In this document: positions 11,306 through 24,520 of the stretch, piece by piece
Numbering within the stretch: the first letter of the stretch is position 1
Layout: every line of letters begins with the position of its first letter
Source of the DNA: a virus
DNA: 30,766 nt
Reading direction: 5' to 3' (one strand)
Virus record (IMG/VR): IMGVR_UViG_3300034071_000665
Location: 1 to 30,766 of that record
Notes under the pieces: model-generated
What the model saw: the letters and a program-made list of their open reading frames with translations, nothing else
Told to the model about the DNA's origin: nothing
Database searches by the model: none
Made by a program: the position numbers and the translations under genes

Positions 11306-11566
11306 TTAGATTCCAGAGAGGGCAGCAATCAGGCGGTCACGCTTGCGGATTTGCTCAAAGTTCACAAACCACAGATCCCGCTTTCCGTTATCGGAACGGG
11401 TGGCACCTAGAACGCCATCCTTTTCGAGGTCAACCATAAGGGCGTGAATGGTGCCCTTATGGCGACGGGGGTCAAGACCCATAGAGCGCACAAGGTCGCT
11501 GCAGGTCTGGGGTCCGTCGTTGATCAGGCGGGTACGGATTGCGGCGCGGATGATGGAAGCGAACAT
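11306..11566 (-). CDS. Winged helix-turn-helix DNA-binding protein
   Basis: 86 residues from ATG at 11566, the whole protein being one wHTH domain: helix 1 (ASIIRAAIRTRLIND), an HTH (residues about 20-50, TCSDLVRSMGLDPRRHKGTI then HALMVDLEKDGVLG), and a beta wing (ATRSDNGKRDLWFV), ending in a basic helix. The layout fits a MarR/IclR-type or Mrr-N-like wing domain. It is the only clear regulator candidate in the window. Its -10 like CTAGGATAC lies 45 bases upstream. It sits among short early-type genes, so it may act on the host or on the palindromic sites nearby; neither is shown. Confidence 0.75.
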   Translation of the reverse strand: MFASIIRAAIRTRLINDGPQTCSDLVRSMGLDPRRHKGTIHALMVDLEKDGVLGATRSDNGKRDLWFVNFEQIRKRDRLIAALSGI

Positions 11567-13206: not shown

Positions 13207-13395
13207 TTAGAACTCTACAATCCAGTCAGGATCTTTGTTTAGATTAACCCAGAAGTGGTTTCTACCGTTGTGACTGGTGAGGAATACTTTATCCCCTTTG
13301 TGTTGTTCTACAATACATTCATCAATTCCATCCATTAAATTAGCAAATCTGTTTTTTGCTTTTTTAGATACAGGCGTGACGAATGCGGTGTCCAT
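13207..13395 (-). CDS. Hypothetical small basic protein, 62 aa
   Basis: 62 residues from ATG at 13395 (MDTAFVTPVSKKAKNRFANL...). A Lys-rich N-terminal part is followed by a beta-rich part (CIVEQHKGDKVFLTSHNGRN then HFWVNLNKDPDWIVEF) that looks like a small beta-barrel. It starts 4 bases after the 43-aa gene and ends 9 bases before the terminator, so it is the last gene of its unit. No family recognised. Confidence 0.75.
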   Translation of the reverse strand: MDTAFVTPVSKKAKNRFANLMDGIDECIVEQHKGDKVFLTSHNGRNHFWVNLNKDPDWIVEF

Positions 13396-13399
13396 GGTG

Positions 13400-13531
13400 T
13401 CAGAAATCGATTGGTTCTAGAGTCGCTTGCATTGTATCATCAGAAGCGGCGATGGTGTCAAGAATCTTGAGGATTTCTTCACCATTGTTACCCTGACGAA
13501 GCATTGAAATCAGAATCGAAGCGTTTTCCAT
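13400..13531 (-). CDS. Hypothetical small helical protein, 43 aa
   Basis: 43 residues from ATG at 13531 (MENASILISMLRQGNNGEEI...). It is one long amphipathic helical stretch (residues 4-33), acidic overall. The start lies 13 bases after the third palindrome of the upstream CTCGACGAG array, followed by TATCAC and TATCAT. Function unknown. Confidence 0.75.
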   Translation of the reverse strand: MENASILISMLRQGNNGEEILKILDTIAASDDTMQATLEPIDF

Positions 13532-13543
13532 GATACGTGATAC

Positions 13544-13605
13544 CTAGTCGAGATTTGTAAGTGTGATAAACTCGTCGAGATTAAATGTGATAATCTCGAC
13601 GAGAT
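13544..13605 (-). repeat. Array of three CTCGACGAG palindromes (regulatory)
   Basis: Centres at 13548 (degenerate, CTCGACTAG), 13575 and 13599 (perfect CTCGACGAG/CTCGTCGAG), spaced 27 and 24 bases. On the minus strand each is followed after 1-2 bases by TATCAC, a -10-like element. The array fills the gap upstream of the 43-aa gene, so an operator/promoter role is likely. The same palindrome occurs at 15578-15588 and five times at 17267-17415. Confidence 0.8.
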
Positions 13606-15142: not shown

Positions 15143-15322
15143 TCAAAAACGAATGATAGGGTGGTCAAGATCGAGGACATCACATTCCTCAGTTGAAAAC
15201 ACTAACTCTACACTTGCTTGATAATACTCATCGGGTTCATCTTCAGAGCAGATAGCAACATCCTGATTCAGTTGATCTTCACTAAGTTGTTGCAACTGTT
15301 CGAGCAGTTCTTTGTATTTCAT
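15143..15322 (-). CDS. Hypothetical acidic protein, 59 aa
   Basis: 59 residues from ATG at 15322 (MKYKELLEQLQQLSEDQLNQ...). An N-terminal coiled-coil-like helix (residues 3-20) with heptad Leu is followed by DVAICSEDEPDEYY and a beta strand ending LDLDHPIIRF. The pattern suits small phage proteins with a helix plus a strand pair. The start overlaps the preceding stop as ATGA. No function assigned. Confidence 0.78.
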   Translation of the reverse strand: MKYKELLEQLQQLSEDQLNQDVAICSEDEPDEYYQASVELVFSTEECDVLDLDHPIIRF

Positions 15323-15534
15323 TGAAGAACGTGACGGTAATCGATGGACTTAATGCACCAACCTGATGCAGTAGAGATTTCCTCTACAAGGTCATCCTCA
15401 TCATCAGCATCCCAGATTTGACCAACATAAACCTCATTGAGGCGTTCTTCAGTCATAATCTGGTCTGATTCATCCCAACCCTCTTCATCATCAAGAGAGC
15501 AATCGAATTGAATTGAAGTGATTTGATACTTCAT
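15319..15534 (-). CDS. Hypothetical acidic protein, 71 aa
   Basis: 71 residues from ATG at 15534 (MKYQITSIQFDCSLDDEEGW...). It starts with a strand, has a very acidic centre (IWDADDEDDLVEEIS) and ends with a strand (GWCIKSIDYRHVLQ), a beta-alpha-beta pattern. First gene after the palindrome/TATCAT element at 15559-15588 and coupled by ATGA to the 59-aa gene. Function unknown. Confidence 0.8.
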   Translation of the reverse strand: MKYQITSIQFDCSLDDEEGWDESDQIMTEERLNEVYVGQIWDADDEDDLVEEISTASGWCIKSIDYRHVLQ

Positions 15535-15558: not shown

Positions 15559-15588
15559 ATGATAGCGCGTGTGCGCGTCTCGTCGAGA
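15559..15588 (-). promoter_or_regulatory. Single TCTCGACGAGA palindrome with -10-like TATCAT
   Basis: TCTCGACGAGA at 15578-15588, followed on the minus strand by a GC-alternating segment with its own palindrome (GCGCACACGCGC) and TATCAT at 15559-15564. CTCGAC falls exactly 17 bases from TATCAT, so the palindrome also occupies the -35 position. It lies 25 bases upstream of the 71-aa gene. Confidence 0.65.
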
Positions 15589-15593
15589 TTTTA

Positions 15594-15616
15594 TGGACAG
15601 TTCACTGACTGTCCAC
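15594..15616. repeat. Intergenic hairpin TGGACAGT/ACTGTCCA
   Basis: An 8-bp perfect stem with a 6-base loop, directly after the stop of the 49-aa gene. On the minus strand it is followed by TAAAATC, not a U-run. The half-site GGACAGT/ACTGTCC also occurs near 16188-16194 and 16726-16732 next to other gene boundaries. Confidence 0.55.
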
Positions 15617-16713: not shown

Positions 16714-16884
16714 CCAACCAGTGGACTGTCCAAAAACTGGCACATCATCGGATTAATTCCGATCTTCTATGGTATCTTATAAGGACAACCAGCGCCCTTA
16801 TAGGGAACGGCAGAGGGGTATCTGCCTGATCAATACATCGTCACTGAACCTGCAAACTTTTTTATAAAAAGTATACAAAAACAT
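16714..16884. other. Intergenic region without a recognised gene
   Basis: About 170 bases after the terminator of the 56-aa gene. There are short inverted repeats (CGGATTAATTCCG at 16749-16761) and a CTTATAAGG segment, but no open frame with a plausible start and no tRNA. The right end is an AT-rich, T-run-containing stretch belonging to the terminator. Confidence 0.4.
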
Positions 16885-16921
16885 AAAAAGACCTTATGTG
16901 CCCCCACCTTGACACATAAGG
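16885..16921 (-). terminator. Rho-independent terminator after the 56-aa gene
   Basis: Minus strand CCTTATGTG, 12-base loop, CACATAAGG (9-bp stem), followed by TCTTTTTATG and a further T-rich run. It lies 28 bases after the stop at 16949. Its loop and distal arm overlap a plus-strand promoter. Confidence 0.85.
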
Positions 16922-16938
16922 CCCTTCTATGTTATACT
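16909..16938 (+). promoter_or_regulatory. Plus-strand sigma70 promoter, antisense to the genes
   Basis: TTGACA (16909-16914), then TTATAC (spacing 17) or TATACT (spacing 18, 16933-16938), followed by GAGGAG. Transcription would run rightward through the 56-aa gene as antisense and toward the iteron array. No plus-strand gene follows. The hexamer match is strong but function is unproven. Confidence 0.5.
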
Positions 16939-16948
16939 GAGGAGTTAA

Positions 16949-17119
16949 CTACCAGATATCAGAATCCAAATCCTCAATATAAGCATCGCACCTCTCACCA
17001 GATTCAAGTTTAAACATCTTCTCCCAATTAATATTATGGGGGTCAAAGTCACCAAGAACGTCGAGTTCCAGAGTGACGCGATAACGATGCTTACGTGCTT
17101 GATCGTAAATGGTTGCCAT
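16949..17119 (-). CDS. Hypothetical small protein, 56 aa
   Basis: 56 residues from ATG at 17119 (MATIYDQARKHRYRVTLELD...) to TAG at 16949. Basic N-terminus, then a beta strand (YRVTLELDVLGD) and an acidic C-terminus (CDAYIEDLDSDIW). A longer open frame overlaps in another phase, but this one starts 25 bases after a near-perfect promoter and ends before a terminator, so it is a complete single-gene unit next to the palindrome array. Function unknown. Confidence 0.78.
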   Translation of the reverse strand: MATIYDQARKHRYRVTLELDVLGDFDPHNINWEKMFKLESGERCDAYIEDLDSDIW

Positions 17120-17143: not shown

Positions 17144-17172
17144 ATCTTACCCCACACTCACCGTTGTGTCAA
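17144..17172 (-). promoter_or_regulatory. Strong sigma70 promoter for the 56-aa gene
   Basis: TTGACA (17167-17172), 17-base spacer, TAAGAT (17144-17149). The -35 overlaps one arm of an inverted repeat TCAATAC/GTATTGA (17169-17193). Confidence 0.8.
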
Positions 17173-17266: not shown

Positions 17267-17415
17267 ATCTCGACGAGATTCTTATATAATGATTCTATGA
17301 TACTGTGTGCGTCTCGTCGAGATTTATGATGCGTGTCTCGTCGAGATTCTTATATAATGATTCTGTTATACTATGATATACTCGTCGAGATTCTCATCGC
17401 GGGTCTCGTCGAGAT
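17267..17415. repeat. Five-copy iteron-like array of CTCGACGAG palindromes
   Basis: Centres of the CTCG[A/T]CGAG core are at 17273, 17317, 17341, 17385 and 17409: spacing 44, 24, 44, 24. The larger unit is therefore 68 bases, and 23 bases are identical at 17274-17296 and 17342-17364 (including TTCTTATATAATGATTCT). Between copies lie TATATAAT, TATACT and TATCAT-like elements. No coding frame. Candidate operator array or replication-origin iterons. Confidence 0.88.
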
Positions 17416-17449: not shown

Positions 17450-17478
17450 TTGACGTTTTTTTGCGGTTGTGCTATAAT
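17450..17478 (+). promoter_or_regulatory. Near-consensus plus-strand promoter facing an AT-rich tract
   Basis: TTGACG (17450-17455), 17-base spacer, TATAAT (17473-17478) with extended -10 TGC. It is one of the best sigma70 promoters in the window, yet points against all genes. It starts 35 bases after the last palindrome of the array and would transcribe the AT-rich tract and the 3' end of the methyltransferase gene in antisense. Confidence 0.75.
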
Positions 17479-17658
17479 ACGCTGTCTAAGATCACAAGGA
17501 TTCAGAGGGATTATAAGAGAGTTATAAAAAGATTCCACACGATTATAAGGCAATAATAAGATATAACAATACTGTAATACTATATGTTATTGATAATGAT
17601 TATCAGTAACAACAAAACACTTTTATATTTAAAAATACATTTAATTAATAAAATAAAC
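17479..17658 (+). ncRNA. Putative plus-strand leader/origin RNA in an AT-rich tract
   Basis: 180 bases, strongly AT-rich, with repeated GATTATAAG-type elements (about 17509 and 17540), no supported gene and no tRNA. A hairpin at 17586-17610 has an 11-bp stem (GTTATTGATAA with TTATCAGTAAC), whose single non-Watson-Crick pair is U-G on the plus strand but C-A on the minus strand, so the structure favours a plus-strand RNA. No U-run terminator follows. Existence of the RNA is inferred only from promoter and hairpin. Confidence 0.4.
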
Positions 17659-18636
17659 CTATTTTAACCATAATTTGTCAATTTTCATCCTATTTTCAAA
17701 GATATTATATCTTAATGCACAATGATGACTTTGAGGTGGTACAATGATTGGATTATAATAACCAGTGAATTCTCTATAACATTTTTTAAAATCTAATATA
17801 TGTTCACCAGACCTTAAAAATGGATGAACTACAATCAAATAAGGTTCATCAGTCTCTGGTAATTTAAACTGAATGACACGATTTGATTGATAATGATCTG
17901 GATTATTTGCATCAAATATATGAACACCTATATGTTCAAATTGATGAGTTTGATAGATGTTTTGTAATGCATTAATAACATTATTCTCATTAATTGGTTT
18001 ATCCATAATATGTGTATAATGATGAAAATGACTTGATGATTGAATCACCTCATTATAATACTCAGCAAACTTAGGAGATAAACCAAGATCTAATGTTACA
18101 CCTTCTGAGATACCTGGATTATGCTCAACATTAACCAAATGAGAATATTCTTTAGGTGTAAGTCTTACAATACTAAACTGAATGATATATTCAGATGGTA
18201 GCATTTTAAATGGCAATGGTACATCAAATGCTGTACCCATCATATCATTCCAAATATAAGACCCTACCAGTTCATGAAAGAGAATATCAATATCTTTGAC
18301 ATTATACGAATTAAATTTAGATGCAATAAACTCAGTATTAATGACTTCAATCTTTTTAGACAATCCCATTCTTTTTGCTACATTTTGAATATGTGCCGCA
18401 GACTTAGGATTTTGTTCAAAACACGTTACATGCTTTGCTCCATGCTTTAATGCTAAAAATGCTAATACACCACTACCTGACCCTACATCAATGCAACGTT
18501 TACCCTTACACTCTTTAAGTATCTGATCATAATATCCTAAACGCATTGATTCATTGATCAATGCAATTCCGTTATACTGAGAACTCATTCTATTTTGTTG
18601 TCTCATTCTTAAACTATAATTCCGATCAAAGTCCAT
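17659..18636 (-). CDS. PRMT-like SAM-dependent methyltransferase
   Basis: 325 residues from ATG at 18636. A class I methyltransferase core: motif I CIDVGSGSGVLAFLALKHGA (residues about 48-67), an acidic ribose-binding residue in CFEQN (E74), and motif IV IDILFHELVGSYIWNDMM (residues 116-133). HELVGSYIWND resembles the double-E loop of protein arginine methyltransferases (SExxGxxxxxE, PRMT5-like), with E122 present and the second Glu position occupied by Asp131. The C-terminal half looks like a beta-barrel, as in PRMTs. Likely substrate: a protein Arg or another small nucleophile; unknown. Last gene of the ketosynthase operon, overlapping the 90-aa gene by 11 bases. A methyltransferase is sure, the PRMT subtype less so. 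Confidence 0.82.
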   Translation of the reverse strand: MDFDRNYSLRMRQQNRMSSQYNGIALINESMRLGYYDQILKECKGKRCIDVGSGSGVLAFLALKHGAKHVTCFEQNPKSAAHIQNVAKRMGLSKKIEVINTEFIASKFNSYNVKDIDILFHELVGSYIWNDMMGTAFDVPLPFKMLPSEYIIQFSIVRLTPKEYSHLVNVEHNPGISEGVTLDLGLSPKFAEYYNEVIQSSSHFHHYTHIMDKPINENNVINALQNIYQTHQFEHIGVHIFDANNPDHYQSNRVIQFKLPETDEPYLIVVHPFLRSGEHILDFKKCYREFTGYYNPIIVPPQSHHCALRYNIFENRMKIDKLWLK

Positions 18637-18904: not shown

Positions 18905-19294
18905 TTAATCCAATTTTGATACTATTTGATTACCATTGAAATGATTTTTCAATTTCATTACTTGATCTCTAAACTTATTTTCTGGACAACGCTGCCTACC
19001 CAAATTAAATAACCTCAAAGCAATAACAACATTATTGGGAATATAACCTTTAGATTCATCCAATCTTTCTAAACTAGGTGCAAGTGGATTATTCCTCTCA
19101 TAAACACCGTAAGGGTCAATTGGATATTCAGTCCAATAGCATTTACCATTTTGTTGTTTATATTGTTTTATAAGATAAAATTCATCTATACTAACATCTA
19201 ATGGTTCTGTTCTTTTAATACCATTCTTTTTTTCTTGTCCAGGTCGGGCGGCAGTCTTTGCTTTTGCTATGAGAGTCTTCCAAGGATTTCTCAC
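18905..19294 (-). CDS. HNH-like nuclease domain protein
   Basis: 129 residues from ATG at 19294, overlapping the ketosynthase stop as ATGA. A basic N-terminus (IAKAKTAARPGQEKKNGIKR) precedes a core of KQQNGKCYWTEYPID (residues about 46-60) and PSLERLDESKGYIPNNVVIA (residues about 73-92). The second block is the usual C-terminal part of HNH endonucleases of the CxxSGxPL...PSLDRxDxxKGY...NV type. The zinc Cys pairs and the HH are not complete (one Cys in CYWTEYPI), so activity is doubtful; a degenerate or structurally zinc-free relative is possible. It could be a homing-type insertion or a true operon member. Confidence 0.65.
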   Translation of the reverse strand: MRNPWKTLIAKAKTAARPGQEKKNGIKRTEPLDVSIDEFYLIKQYKQQNGKCYWTEYPIDPYGVYERNNPLAPSLERLDESKGYIPNNVVIALRLFNLGRQRCPENKFRDQVMKLKNHFNGNQIVSKLD

Positions 19295-20472
19295 ACCTTT
19301 ACCTCAATCACTTGACTTGCACATTTACCACCAAAACCAAAACTATTGTTCACAGTCCTTAGAACCTTTGATGTTGTCTTCAAATCACATGAAGTCCTTA
19401 CAAGTTGCTTTGAGACATCATACTCTGCATTCTCCAAATTATAACATCCAGGAATCACACAATTCCTCATGGATAGGATAGAGTAAATACACTCCAATAC
19501 AGATGCAGCAGCAAGTGTATGACCAATCTTTGACTTTGGTGCATAGATTGGAACATCAGGCAAATAATCTTGCAATACCTGATATTCAATCTCATCACCA
19601 ATCGGTGTACTCGTAGCATGTGCAGAGATTGCATCAATTGTATCAGGTTCAATACCATCCAATGCCTTATCCAATGCAAGTTTTGCACCAACACCATTTG
19701 TTGCAGGACTTGTTAAATCAAATGCATCACTTGCACAACCAACAGGATATAACTTTGCATACACATTTGAATCATATTGTTGTACTTTATCTTTTGATTG
19801 CAAAATTAAAATACCCGCGCCTTCTCCCATCACAAACCCTTCACGATTCTCATCAAAAGGACAATTGTGATTACCCAGTGCGCCAATGCCTGCGAAATAC
19901 TTCAATGCCATCTCAAATACACCAGCATCAGCACCACCTACCACAACATAGTCATACTCATCCAATATCCTCATTGCATAATCAATTGAATACATTCCAG
20001 TCGCACACGATGCATACAATGCCACTGATGCACCATGAAACTTATAATGACTCGTAATCTGACCTACAATCATATCTGGAATACGATTGACAATCTTGAA
20101 TGGATTCACTCTCTTATTCTCTTTAAACCGTTGGAAGTTACCATCAAGGAACTCCACATCATTAGAGACACTTGATACAATCACGGCAACATTCGATGAG
20201 TGTTTTAGATTTGCCATCTTCAATGCCTGCTCAGTTGCATGAAGTGCCATCTGTTGCGCTCTGGTCATGTTAGCGGTTATTTTCGGCGTAAACGCCTCGG
20301 GAAGTAGAATATCATGCAAACATGGAATACCATACTGAATCTTATGCTCACCCATAAAATCAAGTTTCTGAATCGGATTATAATCATTAATCATATTCAG
20401 AAAACAATTCCCAGGTCGATTACCCAATGCATCGACCATACCATAACCAACAACATAAGCAGGATTGACCAT
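19291..20472 (-). CDS. Beta-ketoacyl-ACP synthase (FabF/KAS II-like)
   Basis: 393 residues from ATG at 20472, close to FabF length (about 410). Thiolase-fold ketosynthase with the complete Cys-His-His triad: Cys156 in ALYASCATGM, His285 in SAHATSTPIGDE, His318 in KSKIGHTLAAAS with Lys315, and the C-terminal NNSFGFGGKCAS loop. FabF condenses malonyl-ACP with acyl-ACP in the host cytoplasm. No acyltransferase, ketoreductase or ACP is encoded nearby, so it would use host ACP and reductases, either to shift lipid chain composition or to start a dedicated product. Second-site differences from textbook FabF: AHAT instead of HGT, GGK instead of GGT. It lies in an operon with HNH-like and methyltransferase genes, which is unusual for a phage. 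Base composition fits the neighbours, so no recent transfer is evident. Confidence 0.92.
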   Translation of the reverse strand: MVNPAYVVGYGMVDALGNRPGNCFLNMINDYNPIQKLDFMGEHKIQYGIPCLHDILLPEAFTPKITANMTRAQQMALHATEQALKMANLKHSSNVAVIVSSVSNDVEFLDGNFQRFKENKRVNPFKIVNRIPDMIVGQITSHYKFHGASVALYASCATGMYSIDYAMRILDEYDYVVVGGADAGVFEMALKYFAGIGALGNHNCPFDENREGFVMGEGAGILILQSKDKVQQYDSNVYAKLYPVGCASDAFDLTSPATNGVGAKLALDKALDGIEPDTIDAISAHATSTPIGDEIEYQVLQDYLPDVPIYAPKSKIGHTLAAASVLECIYSILSMRNCVIPGCYNLENAEYDVSKQLVRTSCDLKTTSKVLRTVNNSFGFGGKCASQVIEVKV

Positions 20473-22575: not shown

Positions 22576-22769
22576 TTGTCCTTCAGTAGATTGTGATAAT
22601 GTTGTACTTCTGAGTTTTCAAAATCTTTACATCGTGGATAGAATACACCATCTCGATAGCAAGACTTCTCTGGTTCATAGTAAACCTGAGATGATTTGGT
22701 GTAATTTCTCTCACAGACGTAAGTTCCATTCACACACAATTGCAAAAGAGTGAATAGTGTGGAGTACAT
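22572..22769 (-). CDS. Cys-rich small protein, probably exported, 65 aa
   Basis: 65 residues from ATG at 22769, which overlaps the RlpA-like stop as TAATG. Hydrophobic start (MYSTLFTLLQLCVNGTYVCE) that may be a short signal sequence, then four or five Cys in a small Tyr-rich domain (VYYEPEKSCYRDGVFYPRC). The Cys content suggests disulfides, hence the periplasm. Sits between the RlpA-like and Sec-exported genes. Confidence 0.72.
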   Translation of the reverse strand: MYSTLFTLLQLCVNGTYVCERNYTKSSQVYYEPEKSCYRDGVFYPRCKDFENSEVQHYHNLLKDK

Positions 22770-23104
22770 TATACCACAACTCTCCAACAAACAGTAGCAT
22801 TACCTCTTTTAGAAGATTCGATGTGAGCAAATGCAGCGTAACTCAAATCCAAATCAGCATGTGAGTAAGGACCACGGTCATTCACTCTCACAATTACTTG
22901 TTTACCATTATCTTGATTGGTCACTCGTATGCGTGTACCCATAGGTAGATAAGGATGAGCTGCAGTCCAACGATAAGCATTAAACCGCTCACCATTTGCC
23001 GTAATTTGTCCATGAAATCCATCTCCAATTCCATAAAAAGTGGCGATACCACAAGCAAGACCAGCAATGATTGACATGTTTGGTGAATGAGGCATAAGCA
23101 TCAT
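22769..23104 (-). CDS. RlpA-like double-psi beta-barrel protein
   Basis: 111 residues from ATG at 23104 (ATG at 23101 or 23077 also possible; GAGG lies just upstream). The whole chain is one DPBB domain: ATFYGIGDGFHGQITANGER (residues 21-40), TAAHPYLPMGTRIRV (47-61), VRVNDRGPYSHADLDLS (72-88). The conserved Glu39 in NGE and Asp76 in VNDRGP, needed in RlpA lytic transglycosylases, are kept. RlpA cuts glycan strands lacking stem peptides. A short hydrophobic N-terminus (MSIIAGLACGIA) may serve export. Likely a peptidoglycan-active protein used during release or entry, encoded with two other exported proteins. Confidence 0.88.
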   Translation of the reverse strand: MMLMPHSPNMSIIAGLACGIATFYGIGDGFHGQITANGERFNAYRWTAAHPYLPMGTRIRVTNQDNGKQVIVRVNDRGPYSHADLDLSYAAFAHIESSKRGNATVCWRVVV

Positions 23105-23362: not shown

Positions 23363-24493
23363 TTAACTGACAACTGTAAATGAACGTTGGTCGGGATTCT
23401 CTAATCCTATGTAGTGTGGTTTATCAAAAAATAATGCTGCAAGATCTCTAGTTTGGTCATAACCATCAAGATCGATTTTAATAGCACCTAATCCAATCTC
23501 TGCAAAGGCATTTCTAGTATCCTCATCATGCCCTTGCATCCAATATTTTGGATAGATAACTTTCTTACTATTAGATAATTCTACGCCCCACATACCAAAA
23601 GAACTATTTGCTGCAATATGATAATCACACATAGACATCAAGCATAGTTCAAATGAATAATTATACAAATTATTTGCAATTTTCTCTTTATATGTTGGAT
23701 GCAATTCTTTTACAAGTCTCACCATCTCTTGATTCAATTCTTCTTGAGTTGGAGTAGATGGCATCAAATTATCATAGGCATGTTTAGCTAATGCTACTTT
23801 GTAATCAAATCTACATTCTCCAGAAGCATCTACTAACCTATCCAATTCTTGACCAACATCACAATTAATTAATTCATTATCGTTGAATATATCAAGAACA
23901 AACGTAAATCTTTCTGGATCACTTGCTGTTAAAATTGGATTTGTTAGAATATAATCTTTAACGTTACAAAAGATTAGAACTGGGATGTTTGGTGGCAGTA
24001 ATTCCAATGCCTCTTTATAATAATCATCATCAATTAAAAACATTCCAGATCTAATATCTTCAAAATCACCTCTACGAAGATGCATTGAGATTACTTCTTG
24101 ACCATCAAACTTTGACATAAACTGACGGCATTTATCCACAACTTCTGGTCTAAACCGCAATTCTTTTTTAACAGATTCAAAATTAATAGAATCAACCATA
24201 CTTTTAACAGTAGGATACCCATATAATTCACAGTTGTCCTCTACCATTGCAACAACTTCTTCAAAAGAATGGTCATCCAAAAACTCAATGGACTTTAAAT
24301 CAGCATCAAGTTCATCTTTAATACTGTTAAATTGCAAATTAGTAAATGTATTTCTAAGTGCCTTTAATCCATTTGTATTGATAGTATAACTATACCCTGT
24401 TCTATTTGCAATAGAACGCATCAATACATATGAAGATATCTGGTATCCCAATCCAGTTCCAGTAGCAGCAAATTCTTGATGATATTTAATCAT
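23363..24493 (-). CDS. GT11 alpha-1,2-fucosyltransferase-like protein
   Basis: 376 residues from ATG at 24493 (a TTG three codons earlier is less likely). GT11 marks: N-terminal GTGLGYQISSYVLMRSIAN (GLGNQ-like donor-domain start), the HxRRxD motif in SMHLRRGDFEDI (residues about 136-147) and the late motif CDYHIAANSSFGMWGVELS (about 289-307), which in the family reads IANSTFSWWGAWL. These enzymes move fucose from GDP-fucose to a sugar hydroxyl. Gln of GLGNQ is kept while Asn is Tyr. It follows the 2OG oxygenase-like gene by 27 bases. Possible roles are virion glycan or host LPS modification; the acceptor is unknown. Confidence 0.85.
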   Translation of the reverse strand: MIKYHQEFAATGTGLGYQISSYVLMRSIANRTGYSYTINTNGLKALRNTFTNLQFNSIKDELDADLKSIEFLDDHSFEEVVAMVEDNCELYGYPTVKSMVDSINFESVKKELRFRPEVVDKCRQFMSKFDGQEVISMHLRRGDFEDIRSGMFLIDDDYYKEALELLPPNIPVLIFCNVKDYILTNPILTASDPERFTFVLDIFNDNELINCDVGQELDRLVDASGECRFDYKVALAKHAYDNLMPSTPTQEELNQEMVRLVKELHPTYKEKIANNLYNYSFELCLMSMCDYHIAANSSFGMWGVELSNSKKVIYPKYWMQGHDEDTRNAFAEIGLGAIKIDLDGYDQTRDLAALFFDKPHYIGLENPDQRSFTVVS

Positions 24494-24520
24494 ATTGCAC
24501 AAATTATCCAGTGTTACTAT

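Follow-up and report, generated by a model that had tools for sequence, protein, structure and literature searches.

A conserved palindrome array in T4-like cyanophages, probably the operators of a dimeric regulator

Copies of the palindrome CTCGWCGAG are clustered in one region of a T4-like cyanophage and its relatives, and their sequence and placement suggest that they are probably operators, arrayed over several operons, of a putative dimeric regulator that probably represses. The window, that is, the whole stretch of 30,766 bp analyzed here, is an IMG/VR record complete in itself. Megablast of the window matches, in short stretches, phages of Synechococcus and Prochlorococcus and a single marine virus record, and nothing else; the window is a piece of a T4-like cyanophage. 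That a sequence-specific regulator binds the palindromes, as the first-pass annotation had proposed, is well supported because the word is an 11-bp dyad, is confined to one region, is conserved with turnover of sites, and lies in promoter spacers of relatives. In the proposed mechanism, a homodimeric DNA-binding protein would recognize TCTCGWCGAGA at three gene groups of a single region, 4-6 kb long, and would repress by blocking RNA polymerase. The presence of several sites per promoter may allow cooperative binding, and the controlled genes would be early or delayed-early. Conserved operators of a dimeric regulator are favored over a role in activation, in a replication origin or in RNA.

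The palindrome in the window and in related phages

Eight exact copies of CTCGWCGAG are present in the window, at 13.5, 15.6 and 17.3 kb, and every copy is intergenic. Cluster i has five of them, CTCGACGAG at 17269-17277 and CTCGTCGAG at 17313-17321, 17337-17345, 17381-17389 and 17405-17413, whose centers are spaced by exactly 44, 24, 44 and 24 bases. Cluster ii begins with a near-copy, CTAGTCGAG (13544-13552, one mismatch), a CTAG half-site variant that is common among relatives, and continues with the exact copies CTCGTCGAG at 13571-13579 and CTCGACGAG at 13595-13603, the center spacings being exactly 27 and 24. The columns of these two exact sites are retained in relatives, partly as the CTAG variant. 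The remaining copy, CTCGTCGAG at 15579-15587, stands alone and is conserved in the locus L143. The palindrome family with regular spacing in non-coding gaps, as first described, is thus confirmed.

When one mismatch is allowed, the window contains 11 matches against 2.0 expected, and none of 100 shuffles reaches 11. CTCGNCGAG is the top 9-base odd palindrome of the window (8 copies), and a reversed, non-complemented control pattern has no match there. Shuffling of the 13.0-17.7 kb segment alone (n = 2000) gives a mean of 0.02 copies and a maximum of 1. The palindromes could in principle be chance matches or a by-product of Leu-Asp-Glu codons, given that CTCGACGAG is frequent in high-GC coding DNA and that, among the matches listed, most of those in GC-rich contigs are of that type; the matches listed from genome contigs include two at 34% GC. 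The window, however, has 37% GC, its copies all lie outside genes, and shuffles almost never recreate one. This reading is scarcely conceivable and is already refuted for the window, where the copies are not at the chance frequency that the first-pass annotation had named as the danger to its proposal.

That annotation had also described a TATCAC/TATCAT element at a short fixed distance from several copies, which holds only loosely. On the minus strand, TATCAY follows four copies by 1-2 bases and others by 10, 14 and 33 bases. It is common to the window and the near-identical L143 and is lost in L144-L146. It is therefore not part of the palindrome element, and its candidacy as a second box was rejected.

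As judged by the MDTAFVTP protein (68% identity), the closest cultured phage is S-SRM01 (MW015081; 240,842 bp), a Synechococcus phage from fresh water in Singapore. All 11 of its exact copies lie inside 5.4 kb, in three clusters (85571-85730, 88165-88252, and 90908-91005). The syntenic locus likewise holds every copy of three IMG/VR genomes, G001 (8/8; 246 kb), G002 (10/10; 175 kb) and G003 (10 copies; 96 kb), and the reversed control has 0-1 matches in G001 and G002. The same clusters are found in dozens of IMG/VR cyanophage contigs, and in another six cultured cyanophages the copies are scattered and number 0 to 3. The conservation in related phages anticipated at first reading is thus borne out in the motif-bearing lineage and fails in Bellamy and DSL-LC02, neither of which has an exact CTCGWCGAG copy. 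Because a first pattern scan of IMG/VR was biased to 24-bp spacing and contained many GC-rich chance matches, the main counts rest on protein-fetched loci. This sample consists of 80 loci fetched by the MDTAFVTP protein regardless of motif, together with three phage records; it divides almost cleanly, with at least 3 copies in 35 records, 1-2 in 7 and none in 41.

The word derived from 280 non-redundant copies is TCTCGWCGAGA, a symmetric 11-bp dyad, with ATCTCGWCGAGAT as the wider site consensus. The inner flanks are symmetric in cluster iii, a cluster of the relatives (T at -5 in 98%, A at +5 in 95%), and are less so in clusters i and ii, where overlap with codons (GAT CTC GAC GAG) and with -10 boxes may account for part of the difference. 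In the outer flanks, A at -6 exceeds T at +6 in every cluster, which a plain homodimer leaves unexplained. A four-way alignment of cluster i has 86% identity in the sites vs. 49% between them, and only 15 of 5000 random placements do as well. Site conservation in the cluster ii alignment is not significant alone (943 of 5000 random placements are as good). In the alignments of relatives, sites are gained and lost whole.

Gene groups and promoters at the sites

The clusters are associated with three gene groups: Cluster i lies upstream of the phrog_12516 family, cluster ii at the MDTAFVTP gene and, in relatives, cluster iii downstream of a winged helix-turn-helix (wHTH) gene. Of these, clusters i and ii are present in the window, along with the single copy at 15.58 kb, and cluster iii is absent. 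Cluster ii precedes a minus-strand 43-aa reading frame, MENASILISMLRQG... (13400-13531), read directly from the sequence. The frame starts 12 bases from the nearest site; it is conserved in relatives, where its start aligns. Next in the group is the conserved 62-aa gene MDTAFVTP... (phrog_1653; 13207-13395, minus strand). In the window lineage cluster ii is thus one gene earlier than in S-SRM01, and the sites have therefore moved yet stayed at the same gene group. Spacings of 30-33, 38-44 and 61-64 also occur in the arrays; fixed helical phasing was considered and found to be weak and locus-dependent.

The single copy at 15.58 kb abuts the -10 of a minus-strand promoter-like sequence, TGGACA-16-TAAAAT (15588-15615; 10/12 in a consensus scan), upstream of a small minus-strand gene in the open reading frame list (15319-15534). 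The palindrome would here cover the predicted start site. Cluster i lies between two sigma-70-like promoters. One, TTGACA-17-TAAGAT (17144-17172, minus strand, 10/12), is situated between the cluster and a 56-aa gene (phrog_12516; 16949-17119, minus strand). The other, TTGACG-17-TATAAT (17450-17478, plus strand, 11/12), is divergent. The TTGACA of the former and the whole of the latter are conserved in L143, L145, and L146. The nearest recognizable -35/-10 pair downstream of cluster i is about 100 bases off, and the cluster has no clear spacer operator because the window lineage apparently lacks the gene, MYDDYD, to which cluster i belongs in many relatives.

MYDDYD... is a tiny acidic gene, unannotated in the S-SRM01 record. 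The gene, MYDDYDFEYTYTNDYADLDEYMQDLDEDYARDGQDYESLAYRHYA, lies at about 85.65-85.78 kb in S-SRM01 and at 1392-1529 in L136 and is conserved in dozens of contigs. It is really coding, since gaps among its 34 variants are multiples of a codon, the C-terminus is retained and changes at third positions are in excess. Upstream of MYDDYD, the palindrome lies inside the spacer of the best sigma-70-like promoter (consensus calls) in 34 of 35 distinct regions; as these promoters are orthologues, the count shows conservation, not independent origin. The site is right behind the -35 box and 7-8 bases ahead of the -10, in a spacer of 17-18 bp. Examples of the predicted promoters are TTGACA-tCTCGTCGAGatatcgg-TATAAT in L057 and TTGCAT-CTCGACGAGcattatgc-TATAAT in S-SRM01. 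Additional copies are found about 22-33 bp upstream, at the start codon, and within the reading frame.

The palindrome is its own mirror image, so that the opposite strand can serve as a control for its placement. By this control, sites in the spacer number 11 on the coding strand vs. 0 on the opposite strand, and those abutting the -10 number 20 vs. 10; the other placements are nearly even between strands. The position in the spacer points to repression. The word is above chance in promoter regions and overlaps promoter elements, as in known phage operator arrays; the overlap is seen in 34 of the 35 MYDDYD promoters predicted by consensus, and within the window it is limited to the 15.58 kb site, which touches a predicted -10. 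Constraint at the level of DNA is seen within the gene: Leu-Asp-Glu tripeptides are encoded by CTC GAC GAG in 63 of 80 cases in the MYDDYD protein and in 15 of 80 elsewhere in the loci, the latter probably including frames that overlap arrays. Some cluster i arrays also contain a T4-late-like TATAAATA, which occurs 56 times on the coding strand vs. 13 in reverse, with one mismatch allowed.

Other features of the window were noted in passing. The divergent promoter has no gene after it, and a near-perfect hairpin is found near 17583-17611; the element as a whole (17450-17611, plus strand) is a possible small RNA. At 16883-16930 the minus strand has a long stem-loop ending in a T-rich tail; it separates the gene of cluster i from the following gene group and is likely a terminator. 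The minus strand encodes a beta-ketoacyl synthase with both Pfam domains (19291-20472), an unusual metabolic gene for a T4-like cyanophage, as well as a methyltransferase with a weak PRMT5 match (17659-18636), a family 11 glycosyltransferase (23363-24502) and an RlpA-like DPBB protein (22769-23104).

Activation, replication and RNA as alternative roles

In phage T4, MotA boxes take the place of the -35 box, with an activating effect. The palindromes could similarly be activator sites that aid polymerase at promoters with a poor -35, and they resemble MotA boxes in being a phage-specific box near -30 of some early or middle genes. Two window copies are at the place of a -35 box relative to TATCAT (centers at about -27 and -31). 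TATCAT, however, is not a conserved partner, and placements overlapping the -35 have no strand bias (12 coding, 9 opposite). In relatives, moreover, a recognizable -35 is present as well as a -10, and the site is behind the -35 in a spacer of normal length, 17-18 bp. A box replacing the -35 near -30 together with a motA gene, as in T4 middle promoters, was not found. Activation is hence an unlikely role. In its favor, the middle mode of cyanomyoviruses, which are without asiA and in which motA has not been reported, is unexplained (PMC2984593). Gene timing from early to late in T4-like cyanophages is poorly known because the T4 middle-mode factors are absent. The timing question becomes directly testable with a cultured pair, S-SRM01 and Synechococcus sp. 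KCZYC6, in which the putative operator set is conserved and its promoter position exact.

The first-pass annotation had also suggested an initiator as the binding protein. A word that recurs in AT-rich DNA at one place per genome would suit a partition site or the iterons at a replication origin. The copies, however, form three separate clusters across 4-6 kb, and some are within a coding gene or a promoter spacer. The GC skew does not switch at the array but runs monotonically through the region, unchanged in S-SRM01, G001 and G002; a replication origin was rejected on this ground, the initiator role is without support, and iterons or a partition site are very improbable. It is almost as improbable that the palindrome functions at the RNA level, where it would recur in the transcripts as an element for protein binding or pairing. 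Such a role would agree with the presence of copies in leaders and reading frames, with an A at the coding-strand center in about three quarters of copies, and with spacers that are G-poor on the coding strand. Against it, copies are also found upstream of and inside the promoter, the inner symmetry of cluster iii is nearly complete, and an Rfam search of the window gave no match. Neighboring centers are complementary no more than by chance, and hairpins between neighboring copies were rejected for this reason.

Candidate readers, sister words and known arrays

If the palindromes are operators of a dimeric regulator, a candidate reader is the 86-aa wHTH protein at 11306-11566 (minus strand), which has a well predicted MarR/MecI-like fold (pLDDT 86) and which had been put forward from the start. 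Nearly all motif-bearing records carry a wHTH of the window type or of a diverged S-SRM01 type. The association is not specific: L168 carries the motif but lacks a wHTH at the usual position, and 40 of 80 loci fetched by the wHTH, some of them short, are without any copy. The recognition helix is identical in wHTHs of phages with and without sites, for example in the motif-free L281 beside L178. The protein is therefore unsupported as the reader, although its presence, in this or a diverged form, in nearly every motif-bearing record keeps it a candidate. An unannotated winged-HTH-like frame of 100 aa, with C-terminus RKRERIARFIGI, is found in S-SRM01 (90334-90633) and L136 (6076-6375); given its same place and weak sequence similarity, the S-SRM01 frame is perhaps the diverged counterpart of the window wHTH. 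The motif is present in every locus with a full-length match to an AbrB/MazE-like 56-aa protein. This candidate was also rejected, as it occurs in many motif-free phages (18 of 41 loci with cover) and has no strong match in G001. Comparison of four motif-bearing with three motif-free genomes yielded no motif-specific DNA-binding gene, a search that frames shorter than 38 aa and very diverged genes would escape. The reader may be a host protein, a phage protein that is shared widely, or one that falls below these detection limits, and the operator set can serve as bait for finding it.

In a sister phage, the word itself changes. L201, a 215-kb record that has the wHTH, lacks CTCGWCGAG; AACTAGATT occurs there 12 times, in three clusters that occupy the same places. 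Its word is CAACTAGATT; the three-cluster layout and the spacer site are kept, and a TTGACA/TACAAT promoter has the related ATCTAGAAT inside its spacer of 17 bp. L188, L193, L195, L198, L211, L213, L215, and L216, also without CTCGWCGAG, have AATTATTAA(C/G) arrays in similar places around the MDTAF gene, perhaps the same system; in this group AATTATTAA is often followed by TATACTGTATA. By analogy with the immunity specificity of temperate phages, lytic cyanophages might have a repressor regulon whose operator word varies by lineage (CTCGWCGAG, CAACTAGATT, perhaps AATTATTAA) in a constant three-place layout, the word defining which specificity group a phage belongs to when related phages compete. 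This extension is speculative and rather unlikely.

Phage operator arrays are a known kind. In open-access papers, no description was found of an array in lytic T4-like cyanophages with in-gene sites and a word that changes. The palindrome word had no hit in a phage context among the papers listed, and the S-SRM01 paper has nothing about promoters or palindromes. In phage lambda OR/OL, several dyad operators of one repressor surround a promoter at about 24 bp center to center. The cyanophage arrays share the several dyad sites around a promoter and the step of about 24 bp, with room for cooperative dimers, but they belong to T4-like phages, are at three gene groups and inside a gene, and include the wider spacings given above. 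No CI-like gene is among the proteins identified; in place of an adjacent CI/Cro-type HTH gene, the nearby HTH has the MarR/MecI-like winged fold. The stoperators of mycobacteriophage L5, bound by Gp71, are asymmetric sites spread over the genome. They are similar in that one word recurs at several intergenic places with a preferred orientation to transcription, whereas the cyanophage sites are dyads in one region, with one in a promoter spacer.

T4-like phages also have PeSL cassettes, in which a promoter is paired with a stem-loop at gene boundaries (PMC4503421). Both are repeated intergenic regulatory elements in a variable gene region, but the palindrome is loopless and confined to three clusters, and the early promoter with a stem-loop terminator at boundaries was not seen with it; the B-type dyads of relatives fit that pattern better. 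Gene boundaries in L194, L177, L155, and L201 have a module made of a 24-bp dyad, TGTGMCAST..ASTGGCACA, a GGGGG..CCCCC stem, and TTATACTGAACAAGTCAACC before the start codon. The module resembles PeSL cassettes and has about 10 copies per 8-12 kb, and the window has two loose matches to it.
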